From contig NSIL01000014.1 of NCBI GenBank assembly GCA_002737365.1, positions 1-64,000 on the forward strand: a DNA stretch of 64,000 nt, given 5' to 3'. The position numbers were made by a program, and so were the translations under genes. A model generated the notes under the pieces. It had not been told where the DNA came from, did no database searches, and worked only from the letters and a program-made list of their open reading frames with translations. Shown here one piece after another: positions 39,554-56,291 of this stretch. The DNA comes from Acidobacterium sp. GTDB lineage: Bacteria > Acidobacteriota > Vicinamibacteria > Vicinamibacterales > UBA2999. How positions within the stretch are numbered: the stretch's first letter is position 1; each line of letters opens with the position of its first letter.

Positions 39554-42133
39554 ATGCGCACCCCGATTCTTGCCCTTGTCCTGTGCCTGACGGCCCTGCC
39601 CGCCACGGCTCAGCGCCTGCCGGGCACCGTCGTCCCCGAGCGCTACACGCTATGGTTTGCGCCGGACCTCGATCAAGAAACGTTCCGCGGCCGCGAGTCG
39701 ATTGCCGTGTCGCTGTCGGCGCCAGCCACCACGATCACCCTGCATGCCGCTGAGATCACGTTTGGCGAGGTGACCATCGAGGATGCCGGCGGCTCGCAGC
39801 CGGCGACGGTCACGCTCAACGAGGCGACCGAGACGGCCACGCTGACCGTGCCCCGCGCGATTGCCCGCGGGCGCGCCTTGATCCGCATCACCTACACCGG
39901 CATCCTCAACGACAAGCTGCGCGGCTTCTACCTGAGCAAGGCCAACGGCCGCAAGTACGCGGTCAGCCAGATGGAAGCCACCGATGCGCGGCGCGCGTTC
40001 CCGTCGTTCGACGAGCCCGCCTTCAAGGCGACCTTCGACATCACGCTGATGATCGACGCCGCCGACACGGCAATCTCCAATGGCCGGCAGGTGTCAGACA
40101 CGCCGGGACCGGAGTCTGGCAAGCGCACCATCGTGTTTGCGCCGACGCCGAAGATGTCGAGTTACCTGGTGGCGTTGCTGGTCGGTGACTTCGTCTGCCG
40201 GTCAGGCCGTTCGGGTGCGACGCCCATTCGTGTCTGCTCGACGCCCGACAAGCAGGGTTTGACCGCCTTCGCGCTGTCAGCAGCGGAACAACAGGTCGCC
40301 TTCTTCAACAACTACTTCGGCATTCCCTACCCCTACGAGAAACTCGACATCATCGGCGTGCCCGACTTCGCCGCCGGCGCCATGGAAAACGCCGGCGCCG
40401 TCACCTTTCGCGAACGGATGCTGCTGGTCGATGAAGCCACCGCCTCGGTGGCAGTGCGCAAGAGCGTCGCCTCGGTGATTTCGCACGAGCTCGCGCACCA
40501 GTGGTTTGGCAACCTGGTGACCATGAAGTGGTGGGACGACATCTGGCTGAACGAAGGGTTCGCGACCTGGGCCGCCAACAAGCCGCTCGCCGTGTGGAAG
40601 CCGGAATGGAAGATGGACGCCAACGCCGCGTCGGAAACGCAGGCCGCGCTCGGCCTCGACGCGCTGCGCTCGACCCGCGCCATCCACACCCAGGTGGAGA
40701 CGCCGGCGCAGATCAACGAAGTGTTCGATCCGATCGCCTATGAGAAGACCGGCGGCGTGTTGGGCATGATCGAGGCGTATGTCGGCCCCGAGCCGTTTCG
40801 CAAGGGCGTCGCGTCGTACCTGTCGAAGTACTCGCTCGGCAACGCCGCCGGCGAGGACTTCTGGACCGAAGTCACGCGCGTCACCGAGAAGCCGGTCAAT
40901 CGCATCATGAAGAGTTTTGTCGAGCAGCCGGGTGCGCCCATGCTGTCGGTGCAGACCACGTGCGTGGCCGGTGACACCGAGGTGTCGCTCAAGCAGCAGC
41001 GCTTCGTCGGCGCGCCCGGCGCCCCGGCGGCGGCGCCGCAAACCTGGACGCTGCCGGTGTGCGTCAAGACCGCGACGGGACCGGCGACCTGCACCATCGT
41101 GACGCAAGCCGAGCAAACCATTCGCGCGCCTGGATGCGGCGCCGCGATGGTCAACGCCGATGCCCGCGGCTACTACTTCACCGAGTACGAACCCGCCGCC
41201 GTCGCCGCGCTCGCCACGCGGACGCCGCCGCTGACCGCGGTCGAGCGCATCAGCCTGCTCGGCGATGAATGGCGCATGGTGCGGGCCGGACGCCACGACA
41301 TCGGGGTGTTTCTCGATCTCGCGGCAGCGTTCGCGACGGACCACACACCGGAAGTGCTGGCGGCGTTCGCCGGCCGCCTGGGCTCGGTCGCCGGCGACAT
41401 CGCCGACACCACCGAGCGCCCCGCCTTTCAGGCGTGGGTCCAGGCCCGACTGCGCCCGGCCCTCGATGCCATCGGCCTGACCGACGGCCTGAAGGATTCA
41501 GACGAGGTCAACAGCCGGCGCGGCAGGTTGCTGCAGTTACTGAGCGGCGATCCCGCCGTGCAGCAGCGCGCCCGCGAACTGGCCGAGGCCTACATGGCCA
41601 GGCCCTCGTCACTGTCGCCGACGCTGGTGTCGCCGGTGCTGCAAGTGGCCGCCGCCGGTGGCGATGCCGCACTTTATGATCGGTATGTCGCGCGCATGAC
41701 CGCCTCCTCCGCGGCGCCGGAAGAGTTCTACCGCTACTTCAACACCCTGGCGTCGTTCCGCGACCCGGCGTTGGTGAAGCGCACGCAGCAGTTCGCGCTG
41801 TCGCCGCAGGCGCGGTCGCAGGACGCGCCCCAGTTGTTCGCGCAGTTCCTGGGTTCGCCGGCCACGCAGGACGGCACGTGGGCTCTCGTCAAGGCCGAGT
41901 GGCCGGCACTCACCGCCAAGTTCGGCACCTTCCAGGGCCTCCCGAACATCGTCGGCGCCCTCGGCGCGTTCTGTTCGGCCGAGCACGCGGCAGACATCAA
42001 GGCGTTCTTCGAGGCGCATCCAGTGCCGCAAGCCGCGCGGGCGCTGCAGCAGTCGCTCGAGCGCATCGCGACCTGCGCCACGGTCAAGACGCGGCAGTCG
42101 CCGGCGTTCGGCAAGTGGCTGGCGGCGCGCTGA
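39554..42133 (+). CDS. M1 family aminopeptidase
   Basis: The 859-residue secreted peptidase has a signal peptide (1-19). The exopeptidase motif is GAMEN at 275-279, and the zinc site is HELAH at 311-315 with the third ligand E334 (WLNEGFATW). An ERAP1-like helical C-terminal domain runs from about 520 on. It removes N-terminal residues from peptides, probably in the periplasm. An insertion near 470-540 includes several cysteines (TTCVAGDTE, LPVCVKT, ATCTIV), plausible disulfides. It is transcribed with the molybdenum hydroxylase genes, 93 bases downstream. Confidence 0.93.
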   Translation: MRTPILALVLCLTALPATAQRLPGTVVPERYTLWFAPDLDQETFRGRESIAVSLSAPATTITLHAAEITFGEVTIEDAGGSQPATVTLNEATETATLTVPRAIARGRALIRITYTGILNDKLRGFYLSKANGRKYAVSQMEATDARRAFPSFDEPAFKATFDITLMIDAADTAISNGRQVSDTPGPESGKRTIVFAPTPKMSSYLVALLVGDFVCRSGRSGATPIRVCSTPDKQGLTAFALSAAEQQVAFFNNYFGIPYPYEKLDIIGVPDFAAGAMENAGAVTFRERMLLVDEATASVAVRKSVASVISHELAHQWFGNLVTMKWWDDIWLNEGFATWAANKPLAVWKPEWKMDANAASETQAALGLDALRSTRAIHTQVETPAQINEVFDPIAYEKTGGVLGMIEAYVGPEPFRKGVASYLSKYSLGNAAGEDFWTEVTRVTEKPVNRIMKSFVEQPGAPMLSVQTTCVAGDTEVSLKQQRFVGAPGAPAAAPQTWTLPVCVKTATGPATCTIVTQAEQTIRAPGCGAAMVNADARGYYFTEYEPAAVAALATRTPPLTAVERISLLGDEWRMVRAGRHDIGVFLDLAAAFATDHTPEVLAAFAGRLGSVAGDIADTTERPAFQAWVQARLRPALDAIGLTDGLKDSDEVNSRRGRLLQLLSGDPAVQQRARELAEAYMARPSSLSPTLVSPVLQVAAAGGDAALYDRYVARMTASSAAPEEFYRYFNTLASFRDPALVKRTQQFALSPQARSQDAPQLFAQFLGSPATQDGTWALVKAEWPALTAKFGTFQGLPNIVGALGAFCSAEHAADIKAFFEAHPVPQAARALQQSLERIATCATVKTRQSPAFGKWLAAR

Positions 42134-42207
42134 GCGTCACTTGAACACCCCTTGCGGCGCATGGGGGTTCTCGGCTCTACTTACGGTTCGGAACTAAAGG
42201 AGCTGCC

Positions 42208-43383
42208 ATGTCAGTCAGAAAAGCGACACTGTCACGAATTCTCGGATCTGCCCTCGCCGTCGGCGCCGCCATCACCTGGACGACATGGGACACCAATTCC
42301 ACCGCGCGTGCCCAGGCCAAGCCGGCCGCGCGGGCCGCAGTCGGCAATGTCATCTCGGGCGAAGGACTGCCCAACCCGGCGCCGAAGGTCACCCAGAACT
42401 GGGGCGAGCTGCCGGCCGGCCGGACGTGGGGTACCTCGGCGGGCATCGACATCGATCCGAAAGACGGCCATGTGTGGGCCTACGAGCGTTGCGGCGCCGG
42501 CACGGCCGGTGGCGGGCCGGTGGATTGCGACAACAACCCGGTCGATCCGGTGTTCAAATTTGATCGCCGCACGGGCAAGGTGCTCGCCAACATCGGCAAG
42601 GGCGTGATGGTGACGCCACACGGCATCCACCTGGATAAGGACGGCAACGTGTGGATCGCCGACTTCGCCAATAACAAAGAAGGCACCAAGGGCCAGCAGG
42701 TCCACAAGTTCAGCCCCAAGGGCGACAAGCTCTTGAGCCTGGGCATCGCCGGCAAGCCGGGCAACGCCGACGGCCAGTTCAACCAGCCGAACGACGTGGT
42801 GACCGGACCCGACGGCAGCATCTACGTCTCGGATGGACACGACGGCCAGGGCATGATCACAGCCGCGGCCCTCGCCGAGGGCCTGAAGCGCGGCGCGACG
42901 GCTCGCATCAGCAAGTTCACGGCCGACGGCAAGTTCATCAAGTCGTGGGGCAAGCTCGGTACCCGACACGGTGAGTTCCGTACGCCACATGCGATGGTGT
43001 TCGACGCGAAGGGGCGTCTGTGGGTAGCGGATCGCGGCAACCATCGGCTGGAGATTTTCGACCAGCAGGGCAACTACCTCGAGTCACGCTACATCTACGG
43101 CCGCATCAGCGGCATGTTCATCAAGGGCGACACGATGTATGCGATCGACTCGGAGTCGAGTCCGCTGAACCACACGGGCTGGCGCAACGGCGTGCGCATT
43201 GGTCACATCGACGAAGACCGCGTCACCGCATTCATCGGCCCGTTCGAGCGCGAGGATCGCGGCTACCAGGGCACGGCCGGAGAAGGCGTGGCGGTCGACG
43301 CCGACGGCAACGTCTACGCGGCGGAAGGGCCGAACTCGATCCGCCAGGCGGGCGGCGCGTTTACCAAGTACTCCGTGAAGTGA
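42208..43383 (+). CDS. Secreted NHL-repeat propeller protein (second PAL-like copy)
   Basis: The 391-residue protein has a signal peptide (about 1-36) and NHL blades: VTPHGIHLDKDGNVWIAD at 135-152, a QPNDVVTGPDGSIYVSDG blade, and FRTPHAMVFDAKGRLWVAD with RGNHRLEIFDQQGNYLESR. It is a second, diverged relative of the propeller at 28942-30069. It has PHG and PHA motifs, so at least two of the possible zinc His are kept. SD AAAGGAGCTGCC lies right before the ATG. The next gene is an octaheme cytochrome, so this propeller also neighbours a heme protein. Confidence 0.82.
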   Translation: MSVRKATLSRILGSALAVGAAITWTTWDTNSTARAQAKPAARAAVGNVISGEGLPNPAPKVTQNWGELPAGRTWGTSAGIDIDPKDGHVWAYERCGAGTAGGGPVDCDNNPVDPVFKFDRRTGKVLANIGKGVMVTPHGIHLDKDGNVWIADFANNKEGTKGQQVHKFSPKGDKLLSLGIAGKPGNADGQFNQPNDVVTGPDGSIYVSDGHDGQGMITAAALAEGLKRGATARISKFTADGKFIKSWGKLGTRHGEFRTPHAMVFDAKGRLWVADRGNHRLEIFDQQGNYLESRYIYGRISGMFIKGDTMYAIDSESSPLNHTGWRNGVRIGHIDEDRVTAFIGPFEREDRGYQGTAGEGVAVDADGNVYAAEGPNSIRQAGGAFTKYSVK

Positions 43384-43437
43384 TTCGGCGGCCATCACCA
43401 TGACCACGAGCAATCCCCTTGGTGGCGGCCGACTGAA

Positions 43438-44691
43438 ATGACCATCAAGCCACATGCGCTGATCTTGTGTTCGGCCGGACTGCTGGCCATTTCGCTGTCA
43501 GTGCAGGTCTCGACGCAGGCACCCGTCGCTCAAGCCAGTGCCATACCGCAGACCGGCGATCGGGCGTATGTCGGGTCGCAAACCTGCCGGCGCTGCCACA
43601 CCGCGACCTACGAGCGCTGGGCCAGGACCCGGATGGCCAACGTCGTGGTCGATCCACGCGTCCGGCCCGAGGTGGTGTTGCCTGATTTCTCGAAGGCCGA
43701 TCCCCTGCTGACATTCAAGCTCGACGAAGTGGCGTTTGTCTATGGGTCGAAGTGGAAGCAGCGCTACTTCGCGAAGCGCGGCGATGACTACTTCCCGCTG
43801 CCCGCCCAGTGGGATGTCGCCAACAAGGTGTGGCGTCCCTACCTGGTTCAGCCGAACACCGACTGGTGGGTGCCTCACTATCCTGGCGACAACTCGCAGC
43901 GGCCGACCGGTCCGCTGTGCGACGGCTGCCATTCCGTCAACTACAACGTCCGCACCAAGACCGTCACCGAATGGAACGTCGGCTGCGAGAAGTGTCACGG
44001 CCCTGGCGGCGACCATGTCACGCGGCCGACTGCCACCAACATCGTCAATCCGGCCAAGCTGGATTTCGTTCGCGCCAACGACACGTGCATCCAGTGCCAC
44101 TCGCAAGGCAAGCCGCGGCGCAATCCGATTGAGGGCCGTTTCTACGACTGGCCGGTGGGATTTGATCAAGGCGAACAACTCAAGGACTTCTGGGAACTCG
44201 AGGAGCACAAGCTCGGGGAGACGACGTTCACGCACTTCGCCGATGGCAATGCTCACAAGAATCGGATGCAGGGCAATGACTTCGTCCAGAGCGCCATGTA
44301 CCGGCACGGGGTGACCTGTTCGAGTTGTCACGACTCGCATGGCACACCTAACGAGGCGCTGCTGATTAAGCCGTCACGGGATATCTGCCTGACGTGCCAC
44401 AATCCGTCTTCGCCGAGTGGCCCACGTGGCGCCACGCTCGAAGACCATACCCACCATGCGCGGGGCAGCGCGGGAAGCGATTGCGTGGCGTGCCACATGC
44501 CGAAGATCGCCCAGACCATCGCCAACGTCAACGTGCGCAGCCACACCTTCGCGTTCATCACGCCCAGGATGACCGACGATTTCAAGATCCCGAACCCCTG
44601 CACCTCGTGTCACACGGACAAGTCCACCACGTGGGCCCGCGAAGCGATGCGGGGATGGAGCAACGTCTCGCCTTGGCGTGGTGACCGATAG
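43438..44691 (+). CDS. Octaheme c-type cytochrome
   Basis: The 417-residue periplasmic protein has a signal peptide and eight CxxCH heme sites: CRRCH, CDGCH, CEKCH, CIQCH, CSSCH, CLTCH, CVACH and CTSCH. The spacing and the CHS/CHGPGG/SSCHDSHG segments resemble cytochrome c554-like multiheme proteins, seen in acidobacteria with or without TPR tails. It likely transfers electrons in the periplasm, and an enzymatic role is possible but not shown. It overlaps the next gene by a few codons and follows the NHL protein by 54 bases. Confidence 0.9.
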   Translation: MTIKPHALILCSAGLLAISLSVQVSTQAPVAQASAIPQTGDRAYVGSQTCRRCHTATYERWARTRMANVVVDPRVRPEVVLPDFSKADPLLTFKLDEVAFVYGSKWKQRYFAKRGDDYFPLPAQWDVANKVWRPYLVQPNTDWWVPHYPGDNSQRPTGPLCDGCHSVNYNVRTKTVTEWNVGCEKCHGPGGDHVTRPTATNIVNPAKLDFVRANDTCIQCHSQGKPRRNPIEGRFYDWPVGFDQGEQLKDFWELEEHKLGETTFTHFADGNAHKNRMQGNDFVQSAMYRHGVTCSSCHDSHGTPNEALLIKPSRDICLTCHNPSSPSGPRGATLEDHTHHARGSAGSDCVACHMPKIAQTIANVNVRSHTFAFITPRMTDDFKIPNPCTSCHTDKSTTWAREAMRGWSNVSPWRGDR

Positions 44692-45343
44692 CGTGAGGCG
44701 AGTGCGCCTGGGCCTGATCGCGGCTGCCATAATCGGGGTGGCGGCGTCGGCATCGGCCCAGGCGGCTAGTGCCTGCCGCGTGATCTGCGAGATCGAGTTG
44801 AAGGTGGAACCGACGTTCACCATCGACAACCTGGCGCGACGGCATCGAGTGGTCACGCCCGATGGCGTCACCGAACGGGTCGAACGCGAGCACGTGTTCG
44901 AAATGGTCTTCGCGGTGGATCTGTCGACGCGACTGTCATGGTTGGAGTTCACCGCCGAGGCCATCACGGCGCCGTTCGCCGACGACCACGAGGTGGGGTT
45001 GGAGCTGGAGATGAACCTCCACTGGCTCCCGGAATCGCGGACCGCCGGGTGGGTCAGCTCTCACTTCGACATCGTCGACAAGTTCAGCGGTGCCGAGCGC
45101 CCTGGCCCGACCCGCGCGTACATCCACAAACTGGATCTCGAACTCGACACCGCGTTCCATCCGTTCAACCGGCTGCCCGAAGGGCGATGGTTGAGGGGCG
45201 TCGAATTCGAGACCTCGCTCGACTATCTCGTGACGGGCCTGCCCAAGCGTGGCGATGTGTTCGCCGATGGCACGCGTTTTCTGGACCGTGCCAGTCCGTG
45301 GTCGCTGTCGTTCGTGCTGGTCATCCCGGTCGCGCCGTTTTAG
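44678..45343 (+). CDS. Secreted protein, possibly outer membrane
   Basis: The 221-residue product begins with a signal peptide (LIAAAIIGVAASASAQA) and has alternating polar/apolar beta strands (HEVGLELEMNLHWLP, YIHKLDLELDTAFHPFNR) ending in SFVLVIPVAPF, with a C-terminal Phe typical of barrel proteins. I do not recognise the family. GTG 44678 overlaps the cytochrome gene by 14 bases, and a GTG at 44693 is an alternative start. Location suggests a link to the multiheme cytochrome, perhaps as a barrel partner. The stop overlaps the convergent peptidase gene by four bases. Confidence 0.7.
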   Translation: MVTDSVRRVRLGLIAAAIIGVAASASAQAASACRVICEIELKVEPTFTIDNLARRHRVVTPDGVTERVEREHVFEMVFAVDLSTRLSWLEFTAEAITAPFADDHEVGLELEMNLHWLPESRTAGWVSSHFDIVDKFSGAERPGPTRAYIHKLDLELDTAFHPFNRLPEGRWLRGVEFETSLDYLVTGLPKRGDVFADGTRFLDRASPWSLSFVLVIPVAPF

Positions 45344-47046
45344 CGCGGCGCCGGGCTACCGAACAATTGGCCGAAGAAGTCGCCCGGGTTCCACGCCGGT
45401 CGCGTCGTCTCCTGCGCCACCAGCCAACCGGTCAGAAAATTGAGGCGCGCGTGCTGCGCGCCCGCCTCGAAATCAAACGGCTGCGACATGTCGTCATTCG
45501 GCTTGTGGTAAACGTCGCGGCGATACGCCGCGTTAATCTGCCCGCCATCCCGCGCTGGGTCGCCGGTCTTGAAGCCGCTCTTGATGAAGAGCGACGGAAT
45601 GCCCTGGCGCACGAAACTGAAGTGGTCGCTGCGGATGAACAGCACCTGCTCGGGAATGGGATCCTCTCCGATCGCGATGCCCAGGTGCTGTGCCGCCTTG
45701 GTGACGGGCGCCATCAGCGACGAGTGCTGCGCGCCGTAGGGGACGATGTCGAGCAGCGGGTGGAAGAGGAAGGGCATGTCGAGCGTCATGTCGGCGACGA
45801 GCGATTCCTTCGGCACGGTCGGATGGCGCACGAAGTAATCGGAACCCAGCAGGCCGCGCTCCTCGGCCGTCACGAACAGGAACAGCGCCGAGCGCCGGCT
45901 CTTGGTCGGCAGCGCCGTGGCGGCATGCGCGATCTCCAGCACGATCGCCACACCGGAGGCGTTGTCGTGCGCGCCGTTGTAGATCTCGTCGCCGTTCATG
46001 GCTACGCCACGCCCGAAGTGATCGACATGAGCGATGTAGACAACGTGCTCGGCCTGCAGTTGCGGATCGCTACCCTTGACGCGTCCCACGAGGTTCGCGC
46101 TGTCGATGTCTTTGCGAGTGCTGCTGGTGGTGACCGAGATGCGCGTCGGCAGGTCGAACGCCTGTGGCTTGCTCGCGGCGGCGGCGGCGAAGATCTCTTT
46201 AAGAGGCGTCGGCGTCCCGGCAAAGAGGGCCGCCGCACCGGTGTGGTTCAGCGACGCCGATCCGCGCAGCGCCACGTCGCCGCGGCTGGGCTGTCCCTGC
46301 GCATCGACCCAGGCGAAGCTGCCTTGCTTGCTGGTGGCGACGCTGACGTCCCAACGGAAGCGCGGATCGTCTGCCGATGTGAAGCTGATGGTGCCTATGG
46401 CGCCGCGCTTCACGGCCTCGGCTTCTTTGGCCGGCCCCGACGAATAGTAGGCGCGTTCGTTGCTCGGCAAGCTGGCCGGCGCGCCGCTCAAATACACTAC
46501 CACTTTGCCCGCGAGGTTCGGGGCGGCCGCGTAGTCGTCGTAGCCGAGCCCTGGCGCGCTGACGCCGTAGCCGACAAACGCGACCGGCGCCTCGTCTATC
46601 GCGACCTTCTCGCGCAGGTGATCGGGGGCAAGCAGGTAGTCCACGCCGTAAGCGAGGGTCTTCGTACCGGCCTTCGACGTCACCTTCAGGGAACTGGCGT
46701 TCTCGACGACCGCCGCGTTACGAAGCGGCACGCGCTGGCGGAAGCCGCCGTTCTCACCTGCAGGCTCTACACCGTAAGACTTAAGCGTCGTCTCGACGTA
46801 GTCCAGCGCCTGGTCGTAACCGGCGCTCCCCAGCCCGCGGCCTTCGAGCTTGTCGTCGGCCAGCTTGCTCATGTGCTGGCGAATGAGGTCAGGCTTGATC
46901 GCATCAAGCGCGGTGCGGACACCCGGGTCATCGAGGTTGGTGGCGGCCACCGCTGCTGGCAGCGCCGAACTCGAACCCTGGCAGCCGCTGACCAGCGCCA
47001 GCACGACGAGGCCAAGAATGAATCGCAAGCTGAAACGTACGGACAT
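45340..47046 (-). CDS. M28 family metallopeptidase lipoprotein with PA domain
   Basis: The 568-residue product has a lipoprotein signal (LALVSGCQGS; lipidated Cys at 22). An inserted PA-like domain (about 140-300) precedes the M28 aminopeptidase core: VVYIAHVDHFG (zinc His), NGAHDNASGVAIVLEIAH (bridging Asp), FLFVTAEERGLLGSDYF (Glu base), a late Asp (VADMTLDMP) and HKPNDDMSQPF near the end. It trims N-terminal residues of peptides outside the cytoplasm. It is divergent from the selenoprotein gene by 98 bases. Confidence 0.93.
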   Translation of the reverse strand: MSVRFSLRFILGLVVLALVSGCQGSSSALPAAVAATNLDDPGVRTALDAIKPDLIRQHMSKLADDKLEGRGLGSAGYDQALDYVETTLKSYGVEPAGENGGFRQRVPLRNAAVVENASSLKVTSKAGTKTLAYGVDYLLAPDHLREKVAIDEAPVAFVGYGVSAPGLGYDDYAAAPNLAGKVVVYLSGAPASLPSNERAYYSSGPAKEAEAVKRGAIGTISFTSADDPRFRWDVSVATSKQGSFAWVDAQGQPSRGDVALRGSASLNHTGAAALFAGTPTPLKEIFAAAAASKPQAFDLPTRISVTTSSTRKDIDSANLVGRVKGSDPQLQAEHVVYIAHVDHFGRGVAMNGDEIYNGAHDNASGVAIVLEIAHAATALPTKSRRSALFLFVTAEERGLLGSDYFVRHPTVPKESLVADMTLDMPFLFHPLLDIVPYGAQHSSLMAPVTKAAQHLGIAIGEDPIPEQVLFIRSDHFSFVRQGIPSLFIKSGFKTGDPARDGGQINAAYRRDVYHKPNDDMSQPFDFEAGAQHARLNFLTGWLVAQETTRPAWNPGDFFGQLFGSPAPR

Positions 47047-47144
47047 CCGGTCAGCTTGGTCTGAACGAGGACGGCGGTCAACCCCATTTCGAGGTCTCCA
47101 ATCGCGCCTTGTAACCTGCCGTCGGCGGCGGCATCATAGCCGCC

Positions 47145-48185
47145 ATGCGAAGACGGAGCCTCGGCATTCTTGCGGCGCTTGCCTTGTCGGTGGTTTACAT
47201 GGCCGGTCAAGCACCGGCAACGCCTGACACCTCGAAGATCGGCCCACAGGTCGGCGCGACCGTGCCGGCGTTCGAGGGGACCGATCAGTTCGGCAAGCCC
47301 CACACCCTGGCCTCGGCCTATGGGCCGAAGGGCGCGATGCTGGTCTTCTTCCGCTCCGCCGATTGGTGACCGTACTGCAAAACGCAGCTCGTGGAGCTGC
47401 AAAGCCGCTACGCCGACATCACCAGGCAGGGCTTGGGCCTGATTGCCGTCAGCTACGACGCGCCCGAGACGTTGAAGAAGTTTGCGGGCTCGCGCGGGAT
47501 CATGTTTCCGCTGATCTCCGATCCGGGGTCGGCCATCATCAAGCGGTATGGGCTGCTGAACGACACGGCTGATCCCAAATCGAGAACCTACGGCATTCCC
47601 CACCCCGGCACGTTGATCGTCGATCGCAAGGGCGTGGTGCAGTCCCGCTTCTTCGAGGATGCCTACCAGGAGCGCTACACGGCCGCGACGATTCTCAGCT
47701 CGCTCGGCGCTGGTGGCGCCGGCCGCATGTCGGCCACGACGACGCACTTGTCCATGACGGCGTCGATCAGCGACACCGACGCGGCTCCGGGTGAACGGCT
47801 CGCGATTGTGGTCGACGTGACGCCCCAGCCGGGGATGCATCTCTACGCGCCTGGCAAGCACACCTACCAGGCCGTCCAGCTCACGCTCGACCCGCAGCCG
47901 TGGCTGCGGCCGCAGGCGACGGTCTATCCCGCGTCGGAGATCTACCACTTCAAGCCGCTCGACGAGCGCGTCGAAGTGTTCATGAAGCCTTTCCGCCTGC
48001 GCCGGGATGTCACGTTGCTGGCGACGCCAGAGGGGCAGAAGCTGCTCGGGGCGATGACGACGGCGACGATCAGCGGGACGCTGGAGTATCAGGCTTGCGA
48101 CGACAAGGTCTGCTACCACCCGGCGCGCATCCCGGTCAGTTTCGTGGTGTCACTGAAGGGACTCGATCGCCGGCCGCCTGGTTAG
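47145..48185 (+). CDS. Probable selenoprotein: redoxin domain (UxxC) plus DsbD-alpha-like domain
   Basis: Two frames in the same phase are split only by TGA at 47367-47369. The first 74 residues are a signal peptide (1-21) and the start of an AhpC/TSA-redoxin fold (IGPQVGATVPAFEGTDQFGK, LVFFRSADW). Then come UGA and PYCKTQLVELQ, so UGA takes the first Cys position of the family's WCPYC motif, giving U75-P-Y-C78. The rest of the redoxin domain (to about 190) is intact. A C-terminal domain (about 200-346) resembles DsbD-alpha, with CDDKVCYHPARIPVSF. A SECIS-like hairpin follows 15 bases after the UGA. The 346-residue product is probably a periplasmic thiol/selenol oxidoreductase. The alternative is a nonsense mutation. 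Confidence 0.82.
47384..47400 (+). promoter_or_regulatory. SECIS-like hairpin for UGA recoding
   Basis: GCAGCTC-GTG-GAGCTGC is a perfect 7-bp stem with a three-base loop starting with G. The loop lies 21 bases after the UGA. Bacterial SECIS elements need a short stem with G in the first loop positions about 16-37 bases downstream, so geometry fits. Confidence 0.75.
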
Positions 48186-48351
48186 CGCGAATAGGGCCGC
48201 CCCGTGTCAGCCGGGGAGTCCGAACAGTCGGGGTGGCGTGTTGAGCGCTGGGGTTTCGGACCTTCGAGGCCCGCCCCTCCGCTCGCATTCGGCGATCAGC
48301 TTGCGTCCAGGACGGAAGGCCGACAAACCAGCGAGCTAGCAGGGAGACGAG

Positions 48352-49356
48352 ATGTATTCAGATCGCCGCACGTTCCTGAAGTCCACGGCCGCTGGTGTGG
48401 TCTCGGCCACTGCCGCGACGCTCGCGGCGTCGGCGCCCTTGGAGGCGCGAACCGGCGCCTTCGAGATGCCGCGCGACATGACGCTGCTGAACATGCGCAC
48501 CGCGGCCGGGCCCCGGCTCGGCGTGAAGCTGCCCAAGGGCATCCTCGATGTGGCGGCGGCCGCCGCCAGGTTCAAGCTGCCGGCGCCGGTCGACACCGAC
48601 GACCTGCTGCAGAACGGCAAGGGCGGCATGCTGGCCACTCTCGTGGCTGCGGCGGCCGCGGGTCCGGCCGCGCTCTTTCTCCAGGAGAGTGCCGTGCAGC
48701 ATGCGCCGCTCGTCACGCGTCCCGAGAAGATCATCATGATGGGGTTCAACTATCGGCGGCATGCCGCCGAAACCAACACGCCCATCCCCGCCAATCCGGT
48801 CCTCTTCAACAAGTTCAACAACACCCTCAACCACCACGGCGGCACGATTGCGCTGCCCACCGCGACGGCGAAGCAGTTCGACCACGAGATCGAGCTGGTG
48901 GTCGTCTTCGGACGCGAGTGCCGCAACGTGTCGGAAGCCGACGCACTCAACTACGTTGCCGGCTACTGCACCGGCAACGACTTTTCCGCGCGGGACATGC
49001 AGTACCTCACGTCGCAGTTCATGATCGGCAAGACGTTCGACGGGTTTGCACCGCTTGGCCCGCACCTGGTCACCAGTGACCTCGTGGGCGATCCCAACAA
49101 CCTGAGGCTCGAATGCCGGATCAACGGCGAGCAGCGGCAGGACTGGAACACCAACGACATGATTTTCAACTGCCGGCAGATCATCAGCTTTGCGTCGCGG
49201 ATGATGACCATCAAGCCGGGCGACATCCTGTTCACCGGCACGCCGCACGGCGTGATCTTTGGCAAGCCCAAGGCCGAACAGGTGTGGCTGAAGCCGGGCG
49301 ACCGCGTGGCCTGCAGCGTGGAGAGGCTCGGCGAGCTCGCGTTCAGTCTCACCTGA
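48352..49356 (+). CDS. Fumarylacetoacetate hydrolase family protein
   Basis: The 334-residue enzyme has a Tat-like signal (DRRTFLKSTAAGVVSATAAT) and an FAH C-terminal catalytic domain (about 120-334). The metal ligands are the Glu pair in FDHEIELVVVFGRECRN and the Asp in GYCTGNDFSARDMQYLTSQ. It also has FTGTPHGVIFG and GDRVACSVERLGEL. Family members hydrolyse or decarboxylate diketo acids or act as isomerases. Export of such an enzyme is unusual but seen in acidobacteria. SD AGGGAGACGAG precedes the ATG. The 166 bases before it hold no gene. Confidence 0.9.
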   Translation: MYSDRRTFLKSTAAGVVSATAATLAASAPLEARTGAFEMPRDMTLLNMRTAAGPRLGVKLPKGILDVAAAAARFKLPAPVDTDDLLQNGKGGMLATLVAAAAAGPAALFLQESAVQHAPLVTRPEKIIMMGFNYRRHAAETNTPIPANPVLFNKFNNTLNHHGGTIALPTATAKQFDHEIELVVVFGRECRNVSEADALNYVAGYCTGNDFSARDMQYLTSQFMIGKTFDGFAPLGPHLVTSDLVGDPNNLRLECRINGEQRQDWNTNDMIFNCRQIISFASRMMTIKPGDILFTGTPHGVIFGKPKAEQVWLKPGDRVACSVERLGELAFSLT

Positions 49357-49431
49357 CGCCGCGCGGCCATCGAGCCCGTGGGATTCGATGCCGGCAGGCC
49401 GAGCCGATCCCTCCCTCTCGTGGAATTCTTG

Positions 49432-49680
49432 GTGGACACGAAAGCCGAGCTCTTCGAGCTGATGGTGCGGTCGGACCTCCACGTACTGGGTGCGTTGCTT
49501 GAGGAAGACCGCGCTGCGCTCTGTGGGCCGCAGTATGCGCATCAGCCCGCCGCGCCTCGCGCGCGGGGACGGTCCCGAGCGAAGTGGTGCTCGGCGGACA
49601 GAAGGTGGCCGTCTCCCGGCCACGGGTCCGCGCCGAGAGCCACGACGTCCCGCTGCTGCCCAGCGCGACGTCGGATACGC
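49432..49680 (+). pseudogene. IS256-family (mutator-type) transposase N-terminal remnant
   Basis: The first frame reads VDTKAELFELMVRSDLHVL, then ALLEEDRAALCGPQYAHQPA. After a frameshift at about 49570 it continues PSEVVLGGQKVAVSRPRVRA and ESHDVPLLPS. This is the conserved N-terminal region of IS256-type transposases (normally about 400 residues). The DDE catalytic domain and terminal repeats are absent. It is a truncated, frameshifted relic. The flanks 49357-49431 and 49681-49780 show nothing else. Confidence 0.8.
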
Positions 49681-49780
49681 GGTTTGGCAGGCCGGTCAAA
49701 GCCGGCTGCCCCGCAAGCGGGCGAGGCCCGGAGCTGGCGCCAGAGCACCGACTCCGGGCGAGGCCAGACGACGCAGCTTT

Positions 49781-52774
49781 CTAGAACGCGATCCGCGAGC
49801 CGAACTGCACCGACCGCGGGAAGCCGCTGCCGCCGCGAAGGTTCGTCAGCGTCAGGAATGTGTTGGGCAGGCGCTCGTCCGAGTTGGCCGCGAGGGGGTT
49901 GTCCCAGTTCGTGCGGTTGGTCAGATTGAACACGTCGACGAAGAGTTCGACGGTGCGGTCCTGAATCTTCCGCCGCCAGCCGGCCCGGACGTCGACCTGG
50001 AAGTAGTCGGGACCGTAAGCACCGAAGCGCCCACCCTTGTTCTCGACGTCTTTCAGCGCGTTCAGACTTGTGCCGCTGTAGGTGCCGGCCGGTGACGGAT
50101 CGTCGAGCTGGCCGTTGCGGTTGACGTCGATGTTGCTGTTGTAGATCGTGAACGGCGATCCGCTCATGTAGCGCGCCGTCGTGGCCAAGGTCATGCCCCC
50201 GGTCTTCGGCACCTCGACGCGGCCGGCCACCGACAGGACGTGGCGCCGGTCGATGGGGGTCGGTCCGAAGCGCTGGTCGAGATTCATCTCGGTGAGCACC
50301 TGGTCGGTATTCTTGTCGGCTTGGTCCGTGGCCGTGCCTCGCGACTTGGACAGCGCATACGACACACGCCCCGACCACTTGTTGGCGTAGCGCTTCTCGA
50401 GCTGCAGGTTGAGCGCGTCGTAGTTCGAGCTGCCGCCGTTCTCGAACACCCATACCTGCTGGCGGTAGTTGACCGCGTCAGTGCCAAAAATGCCGAAGGC
50501 GTCGAGGCGCTGGATGGCGCCGGTTCGCGTCGTGTTGGCGCGCAGCATCGGCAGCAGGTTCCGCCCCAGGAACATATCGCGGTTCATGATGCGCACGTAG
50601 TCGGCGTGGAACGCCAGCGTCGGCGCCAGCTCGCGGACGAAGCCAGCGGTCACCTGGTGGGCGTACGGCTGCCGGCGGTCTGGCGAATCGTAGATGACAA
50701 CGCCCGTGTTCCGTGGGCTCGTCCCCGGCGGGAACAGCTGGTTCAAGAGAGTGCGATTCACGACGGGACCGTTGACGAGGAGCGGATCGGTCGGGAGCTG
50801 GCCGCGGCTCGGGCCTGGATCCACGCTGTCATTCGGGAAGTTGGCGACGATCGACGAGGTGAACTTCGGGAACTCGATCGTGTCGTCGAGGGCGCCGAGA
50901 ATCGTGCGGTTGTAGAAAATCCCGTAGCCGGCGCGCACGAGCGACTTGCCGCTCGCGCCCAGCTGCCGCGTGAGGCCGATGCGGGGCGAGAAGTTGTTCT
51001 TGTCGACGTTGGTCGTCTGACCTGATTGGAAGAGTGGATTGTCGGCCGTCTCAAGCGTCGGGAAGATCTCAAGGTCGTAGCGGAGGCCGAGGCTCAGCGT
51101 CGTGTGCGGGCCCATCTGCCACTTGTCCTGAACAAAGCCCTCGTAAACGTGATTGGTCATGGTCGCGTCGTAGGCATTCGGGATGCGGATCTGGAGCCGT
51201 TCTGGGTAGGTGCGAGGGTCGGCTGGATTGAACCGCAAGTCGGTGTTGAAGTTGAACGTGCCGTTCTGGTTGATCTGCGATACGCGGCGCAGCTTGGTGT
51301 AGGTGTAGCGCCCGCCCACCTTGATGTTGTGGTCGCCCTTCTTGCCGGGCACGAACCACGAAAAGCTGTCCTCGACCTGGTAGTTGGTATCCCACGGGCC
51401 TTGCGACTCCGTGCTGCCACCCTCGCGCTGCTCGAGGTAGTTGAGCTGCGGAGCGCACAGCGCCATGTTGCTGGCTGCTTCGCCGCCGAACTTGAAGCCT
51501 TCGTTGCCGCCCTCAGGCCCCTGGCCGCGCGTACACAGGTTGCCGTGCCACCAGTGCTCCCACGTCTTGGCGATGCGGAACGTGTTGACCATGGTGCCCC
51601 CGAGCACGCTCGTGAACGTGCCCACGGCCGTCTGGTCCAGATCGGTCTCGTCCTGCCACACATCGCGTTCCGACGCTCGATCGGGGACAACCGGAAACTG
51701 CGGCGCGGTCTCGCGGAGCCACCGCACGGCCCAGGTGTGGTTGGCCGTGACCTGGTGATCGAACCGGATCAGCGTGTTCCAGTCGTTCCGGTCCTCGACC
51801 TGCGAGAAGTCGCGTTCTGGTCGCGACAAAAACGCCCGCGTGCGGCTGGGCTTGTCGACCTGACGTTCGAGGCTGACGAAGAAGTGCGCCTTGTTCTTGA
51901 TGATCGGCCCGCCGAGCACGAAGCCATACTCGCGTTTCTCGACCTGCGCCTTCGGCAGGTTGCGCTGACGCGCGATGACGTCCTTCGAGGTGAGCGAGTT
52001 GCTCACGGCATAGCCGAACAACACGCCCGAGAACTTGTTGCTGCCGGTCTTGGTGACGGCGTTCACGATGGCGCCACCGGCACGTCCGTATTCGGCGTCG
52101 TACATCGAGGTGATGACCTCGAATTCCTGAATAGCCTCGAGCGGCGTGCGCACCTGCGCTCCGGAACTCGTGCCGAGCGCGTTGTCGCCGTTGTAGCCGC
52201 CGTCGACCGACACGTTGTTGTTCTGGCTCGACTGGCCGTTCGAGACGATCGTGTCGTTGCCCATCTGCGTGGAGGGCGAGAACTGGACGCCCGGCAACAG
52301 CGCCACCGTGGCGAAGTAGTTGCGGTTCATGGCCGGCAGTTCGGCTAGTTCTCCGGCGCTGACGTTGCCGCCGACGTCGGTAGCCGTGAGGTCGATGATC
52401 GGCGAGTTACCGGTGACCGTCACCGACTCTTCAAGGGCGCCGATGGCCATCGTGAGGTTGACCGTGATGGTCGTGCCCACGGCCAGCACGAGTGCGCGCC
52501 GTTCGTACGTCCGAAACCCCTCGAGCTTGGCAGCGATGCGGTAGCGCCCGGGGGCCATCTGCGCGAGGTGGTAGACGCCCTCACCGCTGGTCGTTGCCTC
52601 GCGGAACTGACCGCTGTCTTCGTTGGTCACGACGATGGCCACACCCGGGAGCGCAGCGCCTTGTTCGTCCAATGCCCGGCCCGAGAACTCCGCGGTACCC
52701 TGCTGAGCAAGCGCCGGCCAGCCGCCCAGCAACACCATTGCCACCGCCCACACGCCGATGCGAATCATGAACAT
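49781..52774 (-). CDS. TonB-dependent receptor with carboxypeptidase regulatory domain
   Basis: The 997-residue outer-membrane receptor has a signal peptide (1-23, GGWPALAQQ) and a carboxypeptidase-like regulatory domain (about 28-110, GRALDEQGAALPGVAIVVTN). The plug follows (ESVTVTGNSPIIDLTATDVG, NVSVDGGYNGDNALGTSSG, EFEVITSMYDAEYGRAGGAI), then a long barrel ending VQFGSRIAF with terminal Phe. It is of the same Oar-like class as the receptor at 18180-21140 but clearly a different gene. The ATG has GGAGGA 6 bases upstream. Ligand unknown. The transposase relic sits just beyond its 3' end. Confidence 0.94.
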   Translation of the reverse strand: MFMIRIGVWAVAMVLLGGWPALAQQGTAEFSGRALDEQGAALPGVAIVVTNEDSGQFREATTSGEGVYHLAQMAPGRYRIAAKLEGFRTYERRALVLAVGTTITVNLTMAIGALEESVTVTGNSPIIDLTATDVGGNVSAGELAELPAMNRNYFATVALLPGVQFSPSTQMGNDTIVSNGQSSQNNNVSVDGGYNGDNALGTSSGAQVRTPLEAIQEFEVITSMYDAEYGRAGGAIVNAVTKTGSNKFSGVLFGYAVSNSLTSKDVIARQRNLPKAQVEKREYGFVLGGPIIKNKAHFFVSLERQVDKPSRTRAFLSRPERDFSQVEDRNDWNTLIRFDHQVTANHTWAVRWLRETAPQFPVVPDRASERDVWQDETDLDQTAVGTFTSVLGGTMVNTFRIAKTWEHWWHGNLCTRGQGPEGGNEGFKFGGEAASNMALCAPQLNYLEQREGGSTESQGPWDTNYQVEDSFSWFVPGKKGDHNIKVGGRYTYTKLRRVSQINQNGTFNFNTDLRFNPADPRTYPERLQIRIPNAYDATMTNHVYEGFVQDKWQMGPHTTLSLGLRYDLEIFPTLETADNPLFQSGQTTNVDKNNFSPRIGLTRQLGASGKSLVRAGYGIFYNRTILGALDDTIEFPKFTSSIVANFPNDSVDPGPSRGQLPTDPLLVNGPVVNRTLLNQLFPPGTSPRNTGVVIYDSPDRRQPYAHQVTAGFVRELAPTLAFHADYVRIMNRDMFLGRNLLPMLRANTTRTGAIQRLDAFGIFGTDAVNYRQQVWVFENGGSSNYDALNLQLEKRYANKWSGRVSYALSKSRGTATDQADKNTDQVLTEMNLDQRFGPTPIDRRHVLSVAGRVEVPKTGGMTLATTARYMSGSPFTIYNSNIDVNRNGQLDDPSPAGTYSGTSLNALKDVENKGGRFGAYGPDYFQVDVRAGWRRKIQDRTVELFVDVFNLTNRTNWDNPLAANSDERLPNTFLTLTNLRGGSGFPRSVQFGSRIAF

Positions 52775-53039
52775 AGACCATCCTCCGTGATGTTCAAAAA
52801 CCTCAGTTGAGCCGAAGCGGATACGGCGACGAGACGCATTGAAACCTCCCCGACACCATGGTGGAACCCGCGCTGCCGAACGGACGAACGATTAGATAGA
52901 CGACATTAAGCGCTCATTGCTTCCATTCGTCAACTGGGCTTGATCCGATCTGGTGGCAAGTTGGCGACAACGCTGACATTGTTTTTCGTTCCTCGTTTCC
53001 AGGAAAAGGCACTGGCTGTGAGGCGAAGCCTAGCCGTTC

Positions 53040-53359
53040 TGGGAATGCCACCGAACGCGAACTCGTGGAGATTCGCCTTGCCGACGACGATCGCGCCGGC
53101 GGTGTCGATGTTGTCCTTGAGCGCAATCGGAATCCCGTGCAGGGGGCCGCGCAGTTTGCCGGCGCGCTGCTCCTCGTCGAGCGTGCGCGCCTGGGCCAGG
53201 GCAGCCTCGCGCATCACGGTGATGAACGCGTTCACCTTCGGGTTGTAGACGTCGATGCGCCCGAGGCAGGCGTTGACGAGCTCCACCGCCTAGCGCGGTG
53301 CCCGCCGCCACTCCGCCGACCAGAGACATCGTGAACTCGCGACGGGATACAGGCGTCAT
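53040..53359 (-). pseudogene. Decayed Tat-exported amidase
   Basis: ATG 53359 opens a twin-arginine signal (MTPVSRREFTMSLVGG). After a frameshift near 53290 the amidase-signature N-terminus follows (AVELVNACLGRIDVYNPKVN, LRGPLHGIPIALKDNIDTAG with the catalytic Lys). About 30 residues are then deleted, and the frame rejoins at VVGKANLHEFAFGG, after which homology ends. The Ser-cisSer-Lys triad is incomplete. This is a non-functional remnant. The leader of the TonB receptor gene (52775-53039) holds no other gene. Confidence 0.8.
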
Positions 53360-53477
53360 ACGCCGCAACGATACACCGTGCGGGTGCGACCTGAACCCTC
53401 AATCCAGCGAGGGTCATCGCTGGGTCTGAGAACGGGTCTTCTGTTGACTCGGGAGGCCGCGAATATCGCTTATTGTC

Positions 53478-56291
53478 CTACTGACCCAGCCGCTTCTTCA
53501 CCTCGTCGAGCCAGTGCTCGACGACGACCATCGTCGGCGAATCAGCGCCCGCACTGCCGGGCTCTTTGATCAGGACGAATCGGCCATCGGCGGCGACGTC
53601 GTACGTCCGGCCCCGCAACACGGCGTAGTACGGTCTCATGCTGAACAACGGCGCCGGTCGTCCGTAGGTGAAGTCCTTGCCCGAATCCGTTGAGACCGGA
53701 ACGGTCATCATCCGATCGTCGAGGGAGCCGTAGAACAACTCGCGCCCGTTGCGGGCCCACATCGCACGTCTGCCGCCGGCCGCCGAGATCTGCCAGCGGC
53801 CCGTATCCACCGCGGGAAACGGCCGCACATAAATCTCGCGCCGGCCGGACTCGTCCGATTCGTACGCGAGCCATCGGCCGTTGGGTGCGATCTCTCCGTT
53901 CTCGTCGCTCTTTGGCGTCGGCGTGAGGATCTTTACCGTTCGAGTGCCTGCCAGCGGCAACGCCTTCACGTTGGAGTCCGGCTCTTCGGATAAGTAGAGC
54001 AACGTCTGTCCGTCAGGAGACACCGATGTCGGGATGACCGAGGAACTAGCTTCTTCGCGGAGCAGTTCGGAGGTCCCGGTTCCATCGGCAGGTCGCCGCA
54101 TCAGACGGCCGCGGCCCGCTTCCGTCGAACTATAGAAAAGCGATCGTCCGTCGGGTGACCAGATTGGCGAGCGCTTGTCGGTCTTGTCCCCCTCGAGCGT
54201 CAGACGACTCAGGAGATCGTGTTCCAGATCCCAGACCCAGATGTCCCGGTTGCCATCGTTGACGTCGAGCGCGATCTTCTTGCCGCTCGGCGAGATGCGC
54301 GGGTAGATGTACTCACGGGGCTCGGCGGGAATCGCCTGCTCGCGCCCCTGCCGATCGACCCACACGAGCGTGCGGCGCACGCCGGTCTGCGCAGCGCCCG
54401 GCACGTACACGAGCCGGCCCTCCGACGACAGGCTGAACTGCCCCGGACCACCCGCCGTGATGTTGGCATTATCCGTCACGCCGACGATCAGCGGGACGGG
54501 GTCGCCCGTGCGCTCCGCCCGGCGCGCGTCGAATCGGGCCGCGAAGAGCGTTCCATCGCGCACATAGACGATCTGTCCTGTCGACAGCACACGGCCGTCG
54601 TGGCCGCCTTGAAGCACCGCACGCCGGGAACCGCCGTCCACAGGCTGCACAACGATCTCCGCCTGATTCCATGAGCCGGCTGATCTCTTGACGACGGTGT
54701 AGAGCACGGTCTTGCCGCCGTCCAGGATCTGCGGGGACGACGCCGCGGCGTCGTCGGCTTGCAGGGTGACGATCTGTTTCGGCGACCCACCGCCGGCGGG
54801 AACTGTGACAACGCCGCCCGGACCTTGCCCGATGGCGATCACATCGCTCTGCCAGTTGACACCGAACGGAGTGCCCAGCGACGCGAGAACCATCGAGGCA
54901 CCGCCCGTCACCGGAATCTTCTTGAGCGTGGCGGACGTCAACGTCGGCGTCGCGGCCGGTGTGGCACCGGGCGCCTGAGGCGAAGCCGCGGCTCCACTTT
55001 GTCCACCCTGTCCCGACCCAGTCGCTGAATTCGTCCCCGTGCCAAGAACGAAGTACGCCACCCACTGCGAGTCCGGCGAAATGACCGGATCGATCGGATC
55101 CTCTTCCGTTCCCTTGATCGGCTGCGCTTCGACCTCGTTCATGCGGCGGATGAACAACTGGCTGTTCGCGACGAACACGAAGAACGTGCCGTCCGGAGAC
55201 ATGGCGACGTTGTGCCGTGACGTCCTCGTGAACCGCTGATTCGCAGCGAGCGTGTGGACGAAGCGTGTGACGATGGCGGTCTGCGCGGGTGCGGGCTTGG
55301 CGAACCACGCCGCCACGGCGCCGATCGTGCCCACGGCAAGCGCGACGCCCATCCACATGGCTCGCTCGCGCGATCGCCGACGCGCGAGCACCGGCGCCGG
55401 CGCTCCAGCCGCGGAGCCGCCTTCAACGATCCACTGCAGATTCAGCAGCAGATCGTGCGCGCTCTGCACGCGCTGGTTGGGATCCTTCGCGAGGCACGTG
55501 CGGACGATGCGATCGAGCGCGGGGTGCACGAGCGGCTGCACGACCGAGACTGACGGCGCATCTTCTTTGAGAATCGCTCCGAAGAGGCTCGCCTGGCTCT
55601 TGCCGATGAATGCACGCCGGCCGGTGAGCATCTCGTAGAGGATGCAGCCGAACGCCCAGATGTCCGCGCGCGCGTCCGCTTCTTCGCCCTCCACCATCTC
55701 CGGCGCCATGTACGTAAACGTCCCGAGGATCGTCCCCTGCATCGTCAGCGGCGTCGTCATCGTCGCGGGCGACGTCATCATCGAGGCGGCGGGCGTGCTG
55801 ACGGTCGCGGTGCCGGCCACGATCTTCGCGAGGCCAAAGTCGAGCAGCTTGACTCCGGCCGGCGTGAGCATCACGTTGCCGGGTTTCAGGTCGCGGTGGA
55901 GGATGCCCTGGCGGTGCGCGGCGTTCAGCGCGCTCGCGATTTGAATGGCCCACGGCAGCGCCTGCTCGACCGGAATCGGCCCCTTGGCGATGCGCGCCGC
56001 CAGCGTCTCGCCCTCGAGGTACTCCATGACGAGAAACGCCGTCTGATCCTGCTCGCCGACGTCGAAGAGCGTGCAGATGTTGACGTGACTCAACTGGGAG
56101 ATGGCGCGTGCCTCGCGCTCGAAGCGCTCACGCAGGTCAGGAGCGGCGGCGATGTGCGGCAGCAGCGTCTTGACGGCGACGATGCGATCGAGGCGGGTGT
56201 CTTTGGCCTTATAGACCTCGCCCATTCCCCCGGCGCCGATGGCGTCAAGGATTTCGTACGGGCCGAGGCGCGTGCCAGCGGAAATGGACAT
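53478..56291 (-). CDS. Ser/Thr protein kinase with TolB/PD40 propeller
   Basis: The 937-residue membrane kinase has an N-terminal PknB-like domain (about 10-290): glycine loop AIGAGGMGEVYKAK, K41 (VAVKTL), catalytic loop LHRDLKPGNVM (D134), DFGLAK at 151-156 and an APE-like MAPEMV. A membrane helix follows (about 313-335, WMGVALAVGTIGAVAAWFA). The outer part is a WD40/TolB-type propeller with PD40 repeats (FFVFVANSQLFIRRM, RISPSGKKIALDVNDGNRDIW, WSPDGRSLFYSS). This architecture is very common in acidobacteria. The ligand and phospho-targets are unknown. Confidence 0.94.
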   Translation of the reverse strand: MSISAGTRLGPYEILDAIGAGGMGEVYKAKDTRLDRIVAVKTLLPHIAAAPDLRERFEREARAISQLSHVNICTLFDVGEQDQTAFLVMEYLEGETLAARIAKGPIPVEQALPWAIQIASALNAAHRQGILHRDLKPGNVMLTPAGVKLLDFGLAKIVAGTATVSTPAASMMTSPATMTTPLTMQGTILGTFTYMAPEMVEGEEADARADIWAFGCILYEMLTGRRAFIGKSQASLFGAILKEDAPSVSVVQPLVHPALDRIVRTCLAKDPNQRVQSAHDLLLNLQWIVEGGSAAGAPAPVLARRRSRERAMWMGVALAVGTIGAVAAWFAKPAPAQTAIVTRFVHTLAANQRFTRTSRHNVAMSPDGTFFVFVANSQLFIRRMNEVEAQPIKGTEEDPIDPVISPDSQWVAYFVLGTGTNSATGSGQGGQSGAAASPQAPGATPAATPTLTSATLKKIPVTGGASMVLASLGTPFGVNWQSDVIAIGQGPGGVVTVPAGGGSPKQIVTLQADDAAASSPQILDGGKTVLYTVVKRSAGSWNQAEIVVQPVDGGSRRAVLQGGHDGRVLSTGQIVYVRDGTLFAARFDARRAERTGDPVPLIVGVTDNANITAGGPGQFSLSSEGRLVYVPGAAQTGVRRTLVWVDRQGREQAIPAEPREYIYPRISPSGKKIALDVNDGNRDIWVWDLEHDLLSRLTLEGDKTDKRSPIWSPDGRSLFYSSTEAGRGRLMRRPADGTGTSELLREEASSSVIPTSVSPDGQTLLYLSEEPDSNVKALPLAGTRTVKILTPTPKSDENGEIAPNGRWLAYESDESGRREIYVRPFPAVDTGRWQISAAGGRRAMWARNGRELFYGSLDDRMMTVPVSTDSGKDFTYGRPAPLFSMRPYYAVLRGRTYDVAADGRFVLIKEPGSAGADSPTMVVVEHWLDEVKKRLGQ

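Follow-up and report, generated by a model that had tools for sequence, protein, structure and literature searches.

A probable secreted selenoprotein joining a UxxC redoxin domain to a DsbD_N domain in Acidobacteriota

The whole stretch of DNA analysed here, 64,000 nucleotides long, is referred to as the window. On its forward strand a frame opens with ATG at 47145 and closes with TAG at 48183-48185, and the only in-frame stop among its 346 codons is a TGA at codon 75. An earlier reading made from the letters alone (the sequence-only reading) had described two same-phase frames split solely by this TGA, and the frame, coordinates and motif proved to be as described. Residues 71 to 78 read SADW-U-PYC, with selenocysteine (Sec) in the place of the first Cys of a thioredoxin-type motif, W-U-P-Y-C (RSADW-U-PYC). 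From the N to the C terminus the product consists of a signal peptide (probable, by eye), an AhpC-TSA/redoxin domain and a DsbD_N domain, and it is probably a secreted (periplasmic) selenoprotein. The redoxin fusion to a DsbD-alpha-like domain carrying CDDKVC had also been proposed from the letters, and both Pfam and the predicted folds agree with it. The features of the locus are as follows.

47145..48185, + strand: selenoprotein gene, 346 codons and a TAG stop, with one in-frame TGA
47145..47219, + strand: probable signal peptide, residues 1-25, MRRRSLGILAALALSVVYMAGQAPA (by eye; model pLDDT low at residues 1-20)
47250..47645, + strand: AhpC-TSA / redoxin domain, residues 36-167 (Pfam E 3.6e-29; AhpE fold match)
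47367..47369, + strand: TGA codon read as selenocysteine 75 of UxxC (codon survey, hairpin covariation, selA association)
47376..47378, + strand: Cys78, partner of Sec75, at the position of the AhpE peroxidatic Cys (alignments)
47384..47400, + strand: bacterial SECIS-like hairpin, 7-bp stem (47384-47390 with 47394-47400) and loop GTG (47391-47393)
47781..48125, + strand: DsbD_N (nDsbD-alpha) domain, residues 213-327 (Pfam E 3.7e-7; ScsB-N/nDsbD fold)
48096..48113, + strand: CDDKVC, residues 318-323, with the Cys pair C318/C323 (C-x4-C invariant in 41 of 41 aligned sequences)

An AlphaFold2 model built on 41 family sequences had a mean pLDDT of 92.7 and a pTM of 0.86. Residues W74, C78, P154, C318 and C323 are invariant in the alignment of family members (A1, 41 hand-chosen sequences that include full-length homologues). 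A gene caller run with table 11 stops the gene at codon 74, and no NCBIfam model reaches its cut-off against the product (14 weak matches, none above cut-off), so the gene is probably often mis-annotated. Elsewhere in the window, at 43438-44691, lies a multiheme cytochrome-like protein with eight CxxCH motifs.

A homology search of genome contigs returned 80 loci, seven of which do not cover the codon and were left out of the count. The remaining 73 carry TGA (27), TGC (35) or TGT (11) and nothing else, in a sample whose Cys part is biased because 45 of its 46 Cys loci carry solely the search pattern ADWCPYCK, which demands Cys. Fifty-one loci of this first set were taken as the fusion family, and the Cys loci outside it match the redoxin part only. 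A search of the phylum made without the Cys pattern covered 396 genomes and matched 54 of them, some by the DsbD_N part only. Its 29 loci showed TGA in 23 cases, TGC in four and TGT in two; 11 of them duplicate first-set genes and 18 are new (16 TGA and two Cys). Twenty further regions were picked by hand, many of them because TGA had been flagged, and these gave 17 TGA and three TGC (four duplicates of first-set genes and 16 new genes, 15 with TGA and one with TGC). The distinct new genes beyond the first set number 34, with 31 TGA, two TGC and one TGT.

As expected of a bacterial selenoprotein, the in-frame UGA aligns with the Cys of homologues at the redox motif. This is what the sequence-only reading had anticipated when it placed the UGA on the first Cys of a W-C-P-Y-C family motif and called for an alignment of homologues, in which TGC or TGT is indeed seen at that codon. 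Its argument that both flanks are conserved and that decay is unlikely also stood, with one exception: codon differences against five close relatives were mostly synonymous downstream of the TGA in all five comparisons and upstream of it in four, the fifth (L033) showing 7 synonymous versus 10 nonsynonymous differences upstream.

The genome to which the window belongs, an assembly of 54 contigs rated 97% complete, contains selA, selB, selD and tRNA-Sec, the set expected for a bacterial selenoprotein and the one that the sequence-only reading had proposed to look for. The selB gene lies on contig C8 (342.8 bits with a neighbouring stretch, against a cut-off of 242.25), selA on C12 (522.2 bits) and selD on C23 (343.9 bits), the last with one in-frame TGA of its own. 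The tRNA-Sec on C7 has anticodon TCA; the Rfam tRNA-Sec cut-off is not specific, as a tRNA-Ser (L010) passes it too, and the decisive evidence is the anticodon found by ARAGORN, which names L009 tRNA-Sec. By its sequence, selD (L026 1480-2526, on C23) is itself a Sec gene, with CAG-U-ASK, and by eye it adjoins ParB-like and ATP synthase b-subunit-like genes. This genome also holds a Sec redoxin candidate at L111 1438-2019 (C45:133446 region), a 193-codon frame with PKAFTGG-U-TAEC, that is, TxxU.

The gene selA was also looked for in 50 genomes with homologues, the window and L030 (which shares the genome of L028) being omitted. At E <= 0.001 it was detected in 23 of the 26 that have Sec forms, with only a fragment below cut-off in one of these (that of L046), versus five of the 24 that have Cys forms (Fisher p 2e-6). 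The Sec-form MAGs in which selA was not found are L034, L036 and L064, and the Cys-form genomes that have it are L059, L075, L076, L104 and L105.

A hairpin begins 14 bases downstream of the UGA, with GCAGCTC (47384-47390) facing GAGCTGC (47394-47400) across the loop GTG; the 7-bp stem with a G-first loop noticed earlier at SECIS distance is therefore present. A G in a small apical loop close to the UGA is a feature of bacterial SECIS elements according to PMC1088965. Near the UGA no Rfam family reached its gathering score, and the two sub-threshold matches were both to eukaryotic families. Both strands of the 64 kb were scanned crudely for a TGA that separates open stretches of at least 60 and at least 120 codons and precedes a 6-8 bp stem whose loop has G in the first two bases; the Sec75 site was the only match. 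The fold check suggested by the sequence-only reading came out in two ways: the stem is conserved with compensatory changes, of which L064 and L070 give examples, but the energy of the single-sequence fold is not remarkable (z = -0.48, equalled or bettered by 62 of 200 shuffles).

The comparative evidence comes from 48 of the 55 distinct Sec stretches (alignment A2) and from 27 distinct Cys stretches (A3). In the Sec sequences 93.5% of stem cells are paired, with 12 double-change cells in three pairs, and none of 500 shuffles reached the paired percentage, the number of double-change cells or the covariation score, although such p values are optimistic because related sequences are not independent. 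Two other measures were not exceptional in the Sec stems: double-change pairs were as numerous in 89 of 500 shuffles, and further pair types in 116 of 500. The Cys sequences were 64.6% paired, a figure that 494 of 500 shuffles reached but that still exceeds the slid controls (14-39%). Within the first set, where the rows are the 51 fusion-family loci (L028-L076, L104 and L105, with L036 and L058 among those cut by contig ends) plus the window, the 28 Sec rows keep a mean of 6.68 of the seven pairs and the 24 Cys rows 4.63. Counted as distinct stems, the means are 6.33 for Sec (9 stems) versus 4.63 for Cys (24 stems), with an equally optimistic label-permutation p of 1.6e-4, and synonymous resampling predicts that the nine Sec stems would keep 5.04 pairs. 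The loop reads GTN in 68 of 68 Sec rows (55 distinct). The loop is also the codon of Val83, a position that is Val in 58 of 58 distinct Sec rows versus 8 of 27 in the Cys set; the RNA element would seem to hold this residue in place and to release it once Sec is lost.

Two other fates of the UGA have to be weighed. It could be a true stop, with the locus being a pair of short protein genes, a pseudogene or the result of a miscalled base. Translation of the downstream frame could resume at a GTG at 47391, and the unremarkable single-sequence fold would fit. However, that GTG is the loop of the hairpin, the TGA is kept at the same codon in other genomes, differences in the flanks are mostly synonymous (L033 upstream excepted), and both the conservation of the stem and the association with selA speak against a stop, which we consider very improbable. 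The kept TGA, the mostly synonymous flanks and the covarying hairpin led us to reject all three versions: a pseudogene, a sequencing error and a restart at the GTG. The UGA could also be read as another amino acid by a suppressor tRNA or an altered code. Against this, the loci examined that lack TGA at the site have TGC or TGT there, and tRNA-Sec, selA, selB and selD are present in the genome, so that we give this reading even less credit than the stop. From these sequence comparisons, it appears nearly certain that SelB and tRNA-Sec would insert selenocysteine at UGA 75, directed by the downstream hairpin.

Concerning the distribution of the two forms, 49 of the 51 fusion-family loci have Acidobacteriota titles. 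Two homologues from MAGs labelled Actinomycetota, L073 (titled Bifidobacterium breve) and L038 (Acidimicrobiia), are placed inside the Acidobacteriota tree and are therefore probably mis-binned or mislabelled. Lineages without the Sec machinery mostly carry TGC or TGT together with a decayed hairpin. When the Sec/Cys label was laid on an unrooted tree of 85 sequences (those left of 100 rows after duplicate removal), a minimum of 11 changes was needed, their direction not being implied, and at least eight were forced by well-supported branches; shuffled labels needed 23. Locus L047, which has the Cys form (TGC), keeps 7 of 7 pairs and the GTG loop (hairpin region L047 3166-3210; the same gene occurs in L139 and L149), and selA was not found in its genome. 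It falls in a well-supported group of four (100/99) whose other members, L043, L048 and L057, are Sec forms; apparently Sec gave way to Cys here recently, leaving a fossil SECIS. For Prx-like oxidoreductases, the events counted in PMC1794560 are three from Cys to Sec and none from Sec to Cys. A divergent Sec group (L141, L142 and L144-L147) has about 29-33% identity to the window protein, the motif SAVW-U-P(Y/P)C and the same type of hairpin. Repeated switches in Acidobacteriota, including that of L047, would provide natural matched pairs with which to measure what Sec buys, and pairs this close make the question of why Sec is used over Cys testable in one enzyme.

The nearest solved folds of the N-terminal half are those of the peroxiredoxins AhpE and BcpB (AhpE: Z 19.4, rmsd 2.1, 149 aligned residues, 32% identity). 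In the alignment with AhpE, for which Sec was entered as C, the TxxC motif is matched by residue 75 at its Thr and by Cys78 at its Cys; Arg70 stands at the Pro of the peroxiredoxin signature. The active-site signature PxxxT/SxxC(U) was not found in the Sec75 protein, and the Thr position of PxxxTxxC holds Sec or Cys in 85 of 85 distinct rows; a peroxiredoxin proper was rejected on this signature. What the protein has is a PF00578/PF08534 domain with UxxC in place of TxxU, as in Prx-like thiol:disulfide oxidoreductases. Because a peroxiredoxin fold is here combined with a thioredoxin-like centre, thiol:disulfide exchange would be likelier than peroxidase activity, a distinction also drawn in PMC1088965 for Prx-like UxxC selenoproteins. 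A selenoprotein acting mainly as a peroxidase, in which Sec75 (or Cys78) would reduce periplasmic peroxides and DsbD_N would reduce the oxidised enzyme, would be in keeping with the closest solved folds and with the alignment of Cys78 on the peroxidatic Cys of AhpE. The loss of PxxxTxxC just described argues against it. So does the motif of known Sec peroxiredoxins, which is TxxU and not UxxC in PMC1088965 and is TxxU also in the other redoxin of this genome (L111), and we hold a main role as peroxidase to be unlikely.

The C-terminal half was assigned to DsbD_N (PF11412) by a Pfam match above the gathering score (30.6 bits versus 25), by its nDsbD fold and by its conserved redox Cys pair; the match is found at E <= 0.01 in 40 of 41 family members. 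Predicted alone, this half had a pLDDT of 92.8, and VIA-align matched it to ScsB-N (Z 13.7, 123 aligned residues, rmsd 2.2) and to nDsbD of Neisseria and E. coli (Z up to 12.2), the next unrelated fold scoring 9.1. Foldseek alone had ranked unrelated beta-sandwich proteins first, and it was the second look with VIA-align that put ScsB-N and nDsbD on top; the VIA list for the whole model is filled by the redoxin domain and does not contain nDsbD. Identity to the solved nDsbD/ScsB-N chains is 11-16%, and a profile search of PDB sequences with the DsbD_N part returned none at E <= 1. The same genome encodes a second DsbD_N protein, a 206-codon frame at L109 1339-1959 (C52:95302) with CDDRVC and no redoxin match, which shares 49-50% identity with the C-terminal half of the Sec75 protein. 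Loci L077-L082 and L100 match the DsbD_N half only.

The membrane domain of full DsbD (PF02683) was not detected by Pfam in the 346-residue product, and a search of the genome found neither a DsbD_TM (PF02683) nor a DsbD_2 (PF13386) protein despite the rated completeness of 97%. PF02683 is present in 47 of the 50 other genomes searched and genomes of the same genus are larger (4.0-5.9 versus 3.05 Mb), so the missing membrane DsbD is likely a gap in this assembly in spite of that rating. Within the flanks clustered (ORFs of at least 120 aa from window positions 41001-54500 and from the 51 loci with up to 3 kb of flank), no conserved neighbour gene pointed to a substrate. Setting aside those formed by the gene (39 loci) and by ORFs antisense to it (15 loci), none of the 18 largest clusters covers more than five loci, and a conserved operon partner was rejected.

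The N-terminal domain of DsbD passes electrons to periplasmic partners, and for this reason we propose that the nDsbD-like domain feeds Sec75-Cys78. Judging from motif and fold, Sec75 and Cys78 of the redoxin domain would form a thioredoxin-type UxxC centre, in which Sec75 would attack a periplasmic substrate at a disulfide (or at an oxidised thiol), the resulting mixed selenosulfide being resolved by Cys78. The fused domain, through its C318/C323 dithiol, could then re-reduce the Se-S bond as an electron donor or docking module within the same protein, with an electron relay between the two centres, and the nDsbD-like domain itself may be recharged by a membrane reductase of the DsbD/CcdA type. 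This whole scheme, a secreted UxxC redoxin selenoprotein recharged through its fused nDsbD-like domain, seems to us reasonably probable. A periplasmic selenol relay had been suggested by the sequence-only reading too, which in this went further than the evidence; the relay is an inference.

The DsbD_N domain might instead be a passive module for binding or stability that exchanges no electrons with Sec75, which would accord with the genome lacking a detectable DsbD membrane subunit and with the low identity to solved chains. Both Cys of the pair are, however, invariant in 41 of 41 sequences, in Sec and Cys forms alike, and the domain-only paralogue L109 keeps the same spacing; a passive role is thus quite improbable. 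The stricter version of the recharging scheme is a selenol relay within a single chain, where C318/C323 would directly re-reduce Sec75-Cys78, Sec would be kept because Cys slows the relay, and the SECIS would fix Val83. We offer this version tentatively, as a possibility well short of an even chance. If it were true, terminal reductase and electron feeder would be united in one secreted polypeptide.

Comparison with known systems shows which parts of this picture are new. UxxC Prx-like selenoproteins were described in 2005 (PMC1088965). The sequence-only reading had presented the fusion as unfamiliar, but its novelty fails, since a fusion of a Prx-like U/CxxC protein with Pfam11412 from Global Ocean Sampling metagenomes was published in 2021 (Xu et al., PMC9402790), where Pfam11412 is called a 'DsbC' domain; it is DsbD_N in present Pfam. 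The two domains and the U/CxxC motif are the same and additional conserved Cys are noted there, whereas that report is one sentence, naming no organism, and a figure on aquatic metagenomes. The match is one of domains and motif. Relative to that passage, the window family adds many Acidobacteriota genomes, the Sec machinery, covariation of the SECIS and repeated Sec/Cys switching. The entries in Table 1 of PMC13188914 for a Prx-like thiol:disulfide oxidoreductase (PF00578, UxxC) and a Redoxin family protein (PF08534, UxxC, HEU0032618.1) share catalytic domain family and UxxC with the window protein, but only the redoxin domain is given for them, and the table entries compared include no redoxin-DsbD_N fusion. 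Unknown_3 is likewise a UxxC redoxin fused to a Cys-containing domain, as far as its description goes, but with three conserved Cys including a CxxC, whereas the partner domain in the window has one C-x4-C pair.

Among solved structures, nDsbD of E. coli (1jpe/1vrs) and N. meningitidis (6dps) and ScsB-N (6c29) resemble the C-terminal half in fold and in their conserved Cys pair (Z 11.5-13.7, one 10.8). They differ from the window domain, which sits behind a redoxin, has no DsbD membrane domain and spaces its Cys by 4; in E. coli nDsbD the spacing is 5 residues. The 1-Cys peroxiredoxin AhpE of M. tuberculosis has the fold of the N-terminal half, but its TxxC is U/CxxC in the window protein. The redoxin-DsbD_N architecture is thus already in print; new are its placement in genomes, the support for a SECIS, the selA association and the history of switches. 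A fusion selenoprotein found in print only as a one-sentence report from marine metagenomes (PMC9402790) is thereby anchored in many genomes of Acidobacteriota that have a Sec system.
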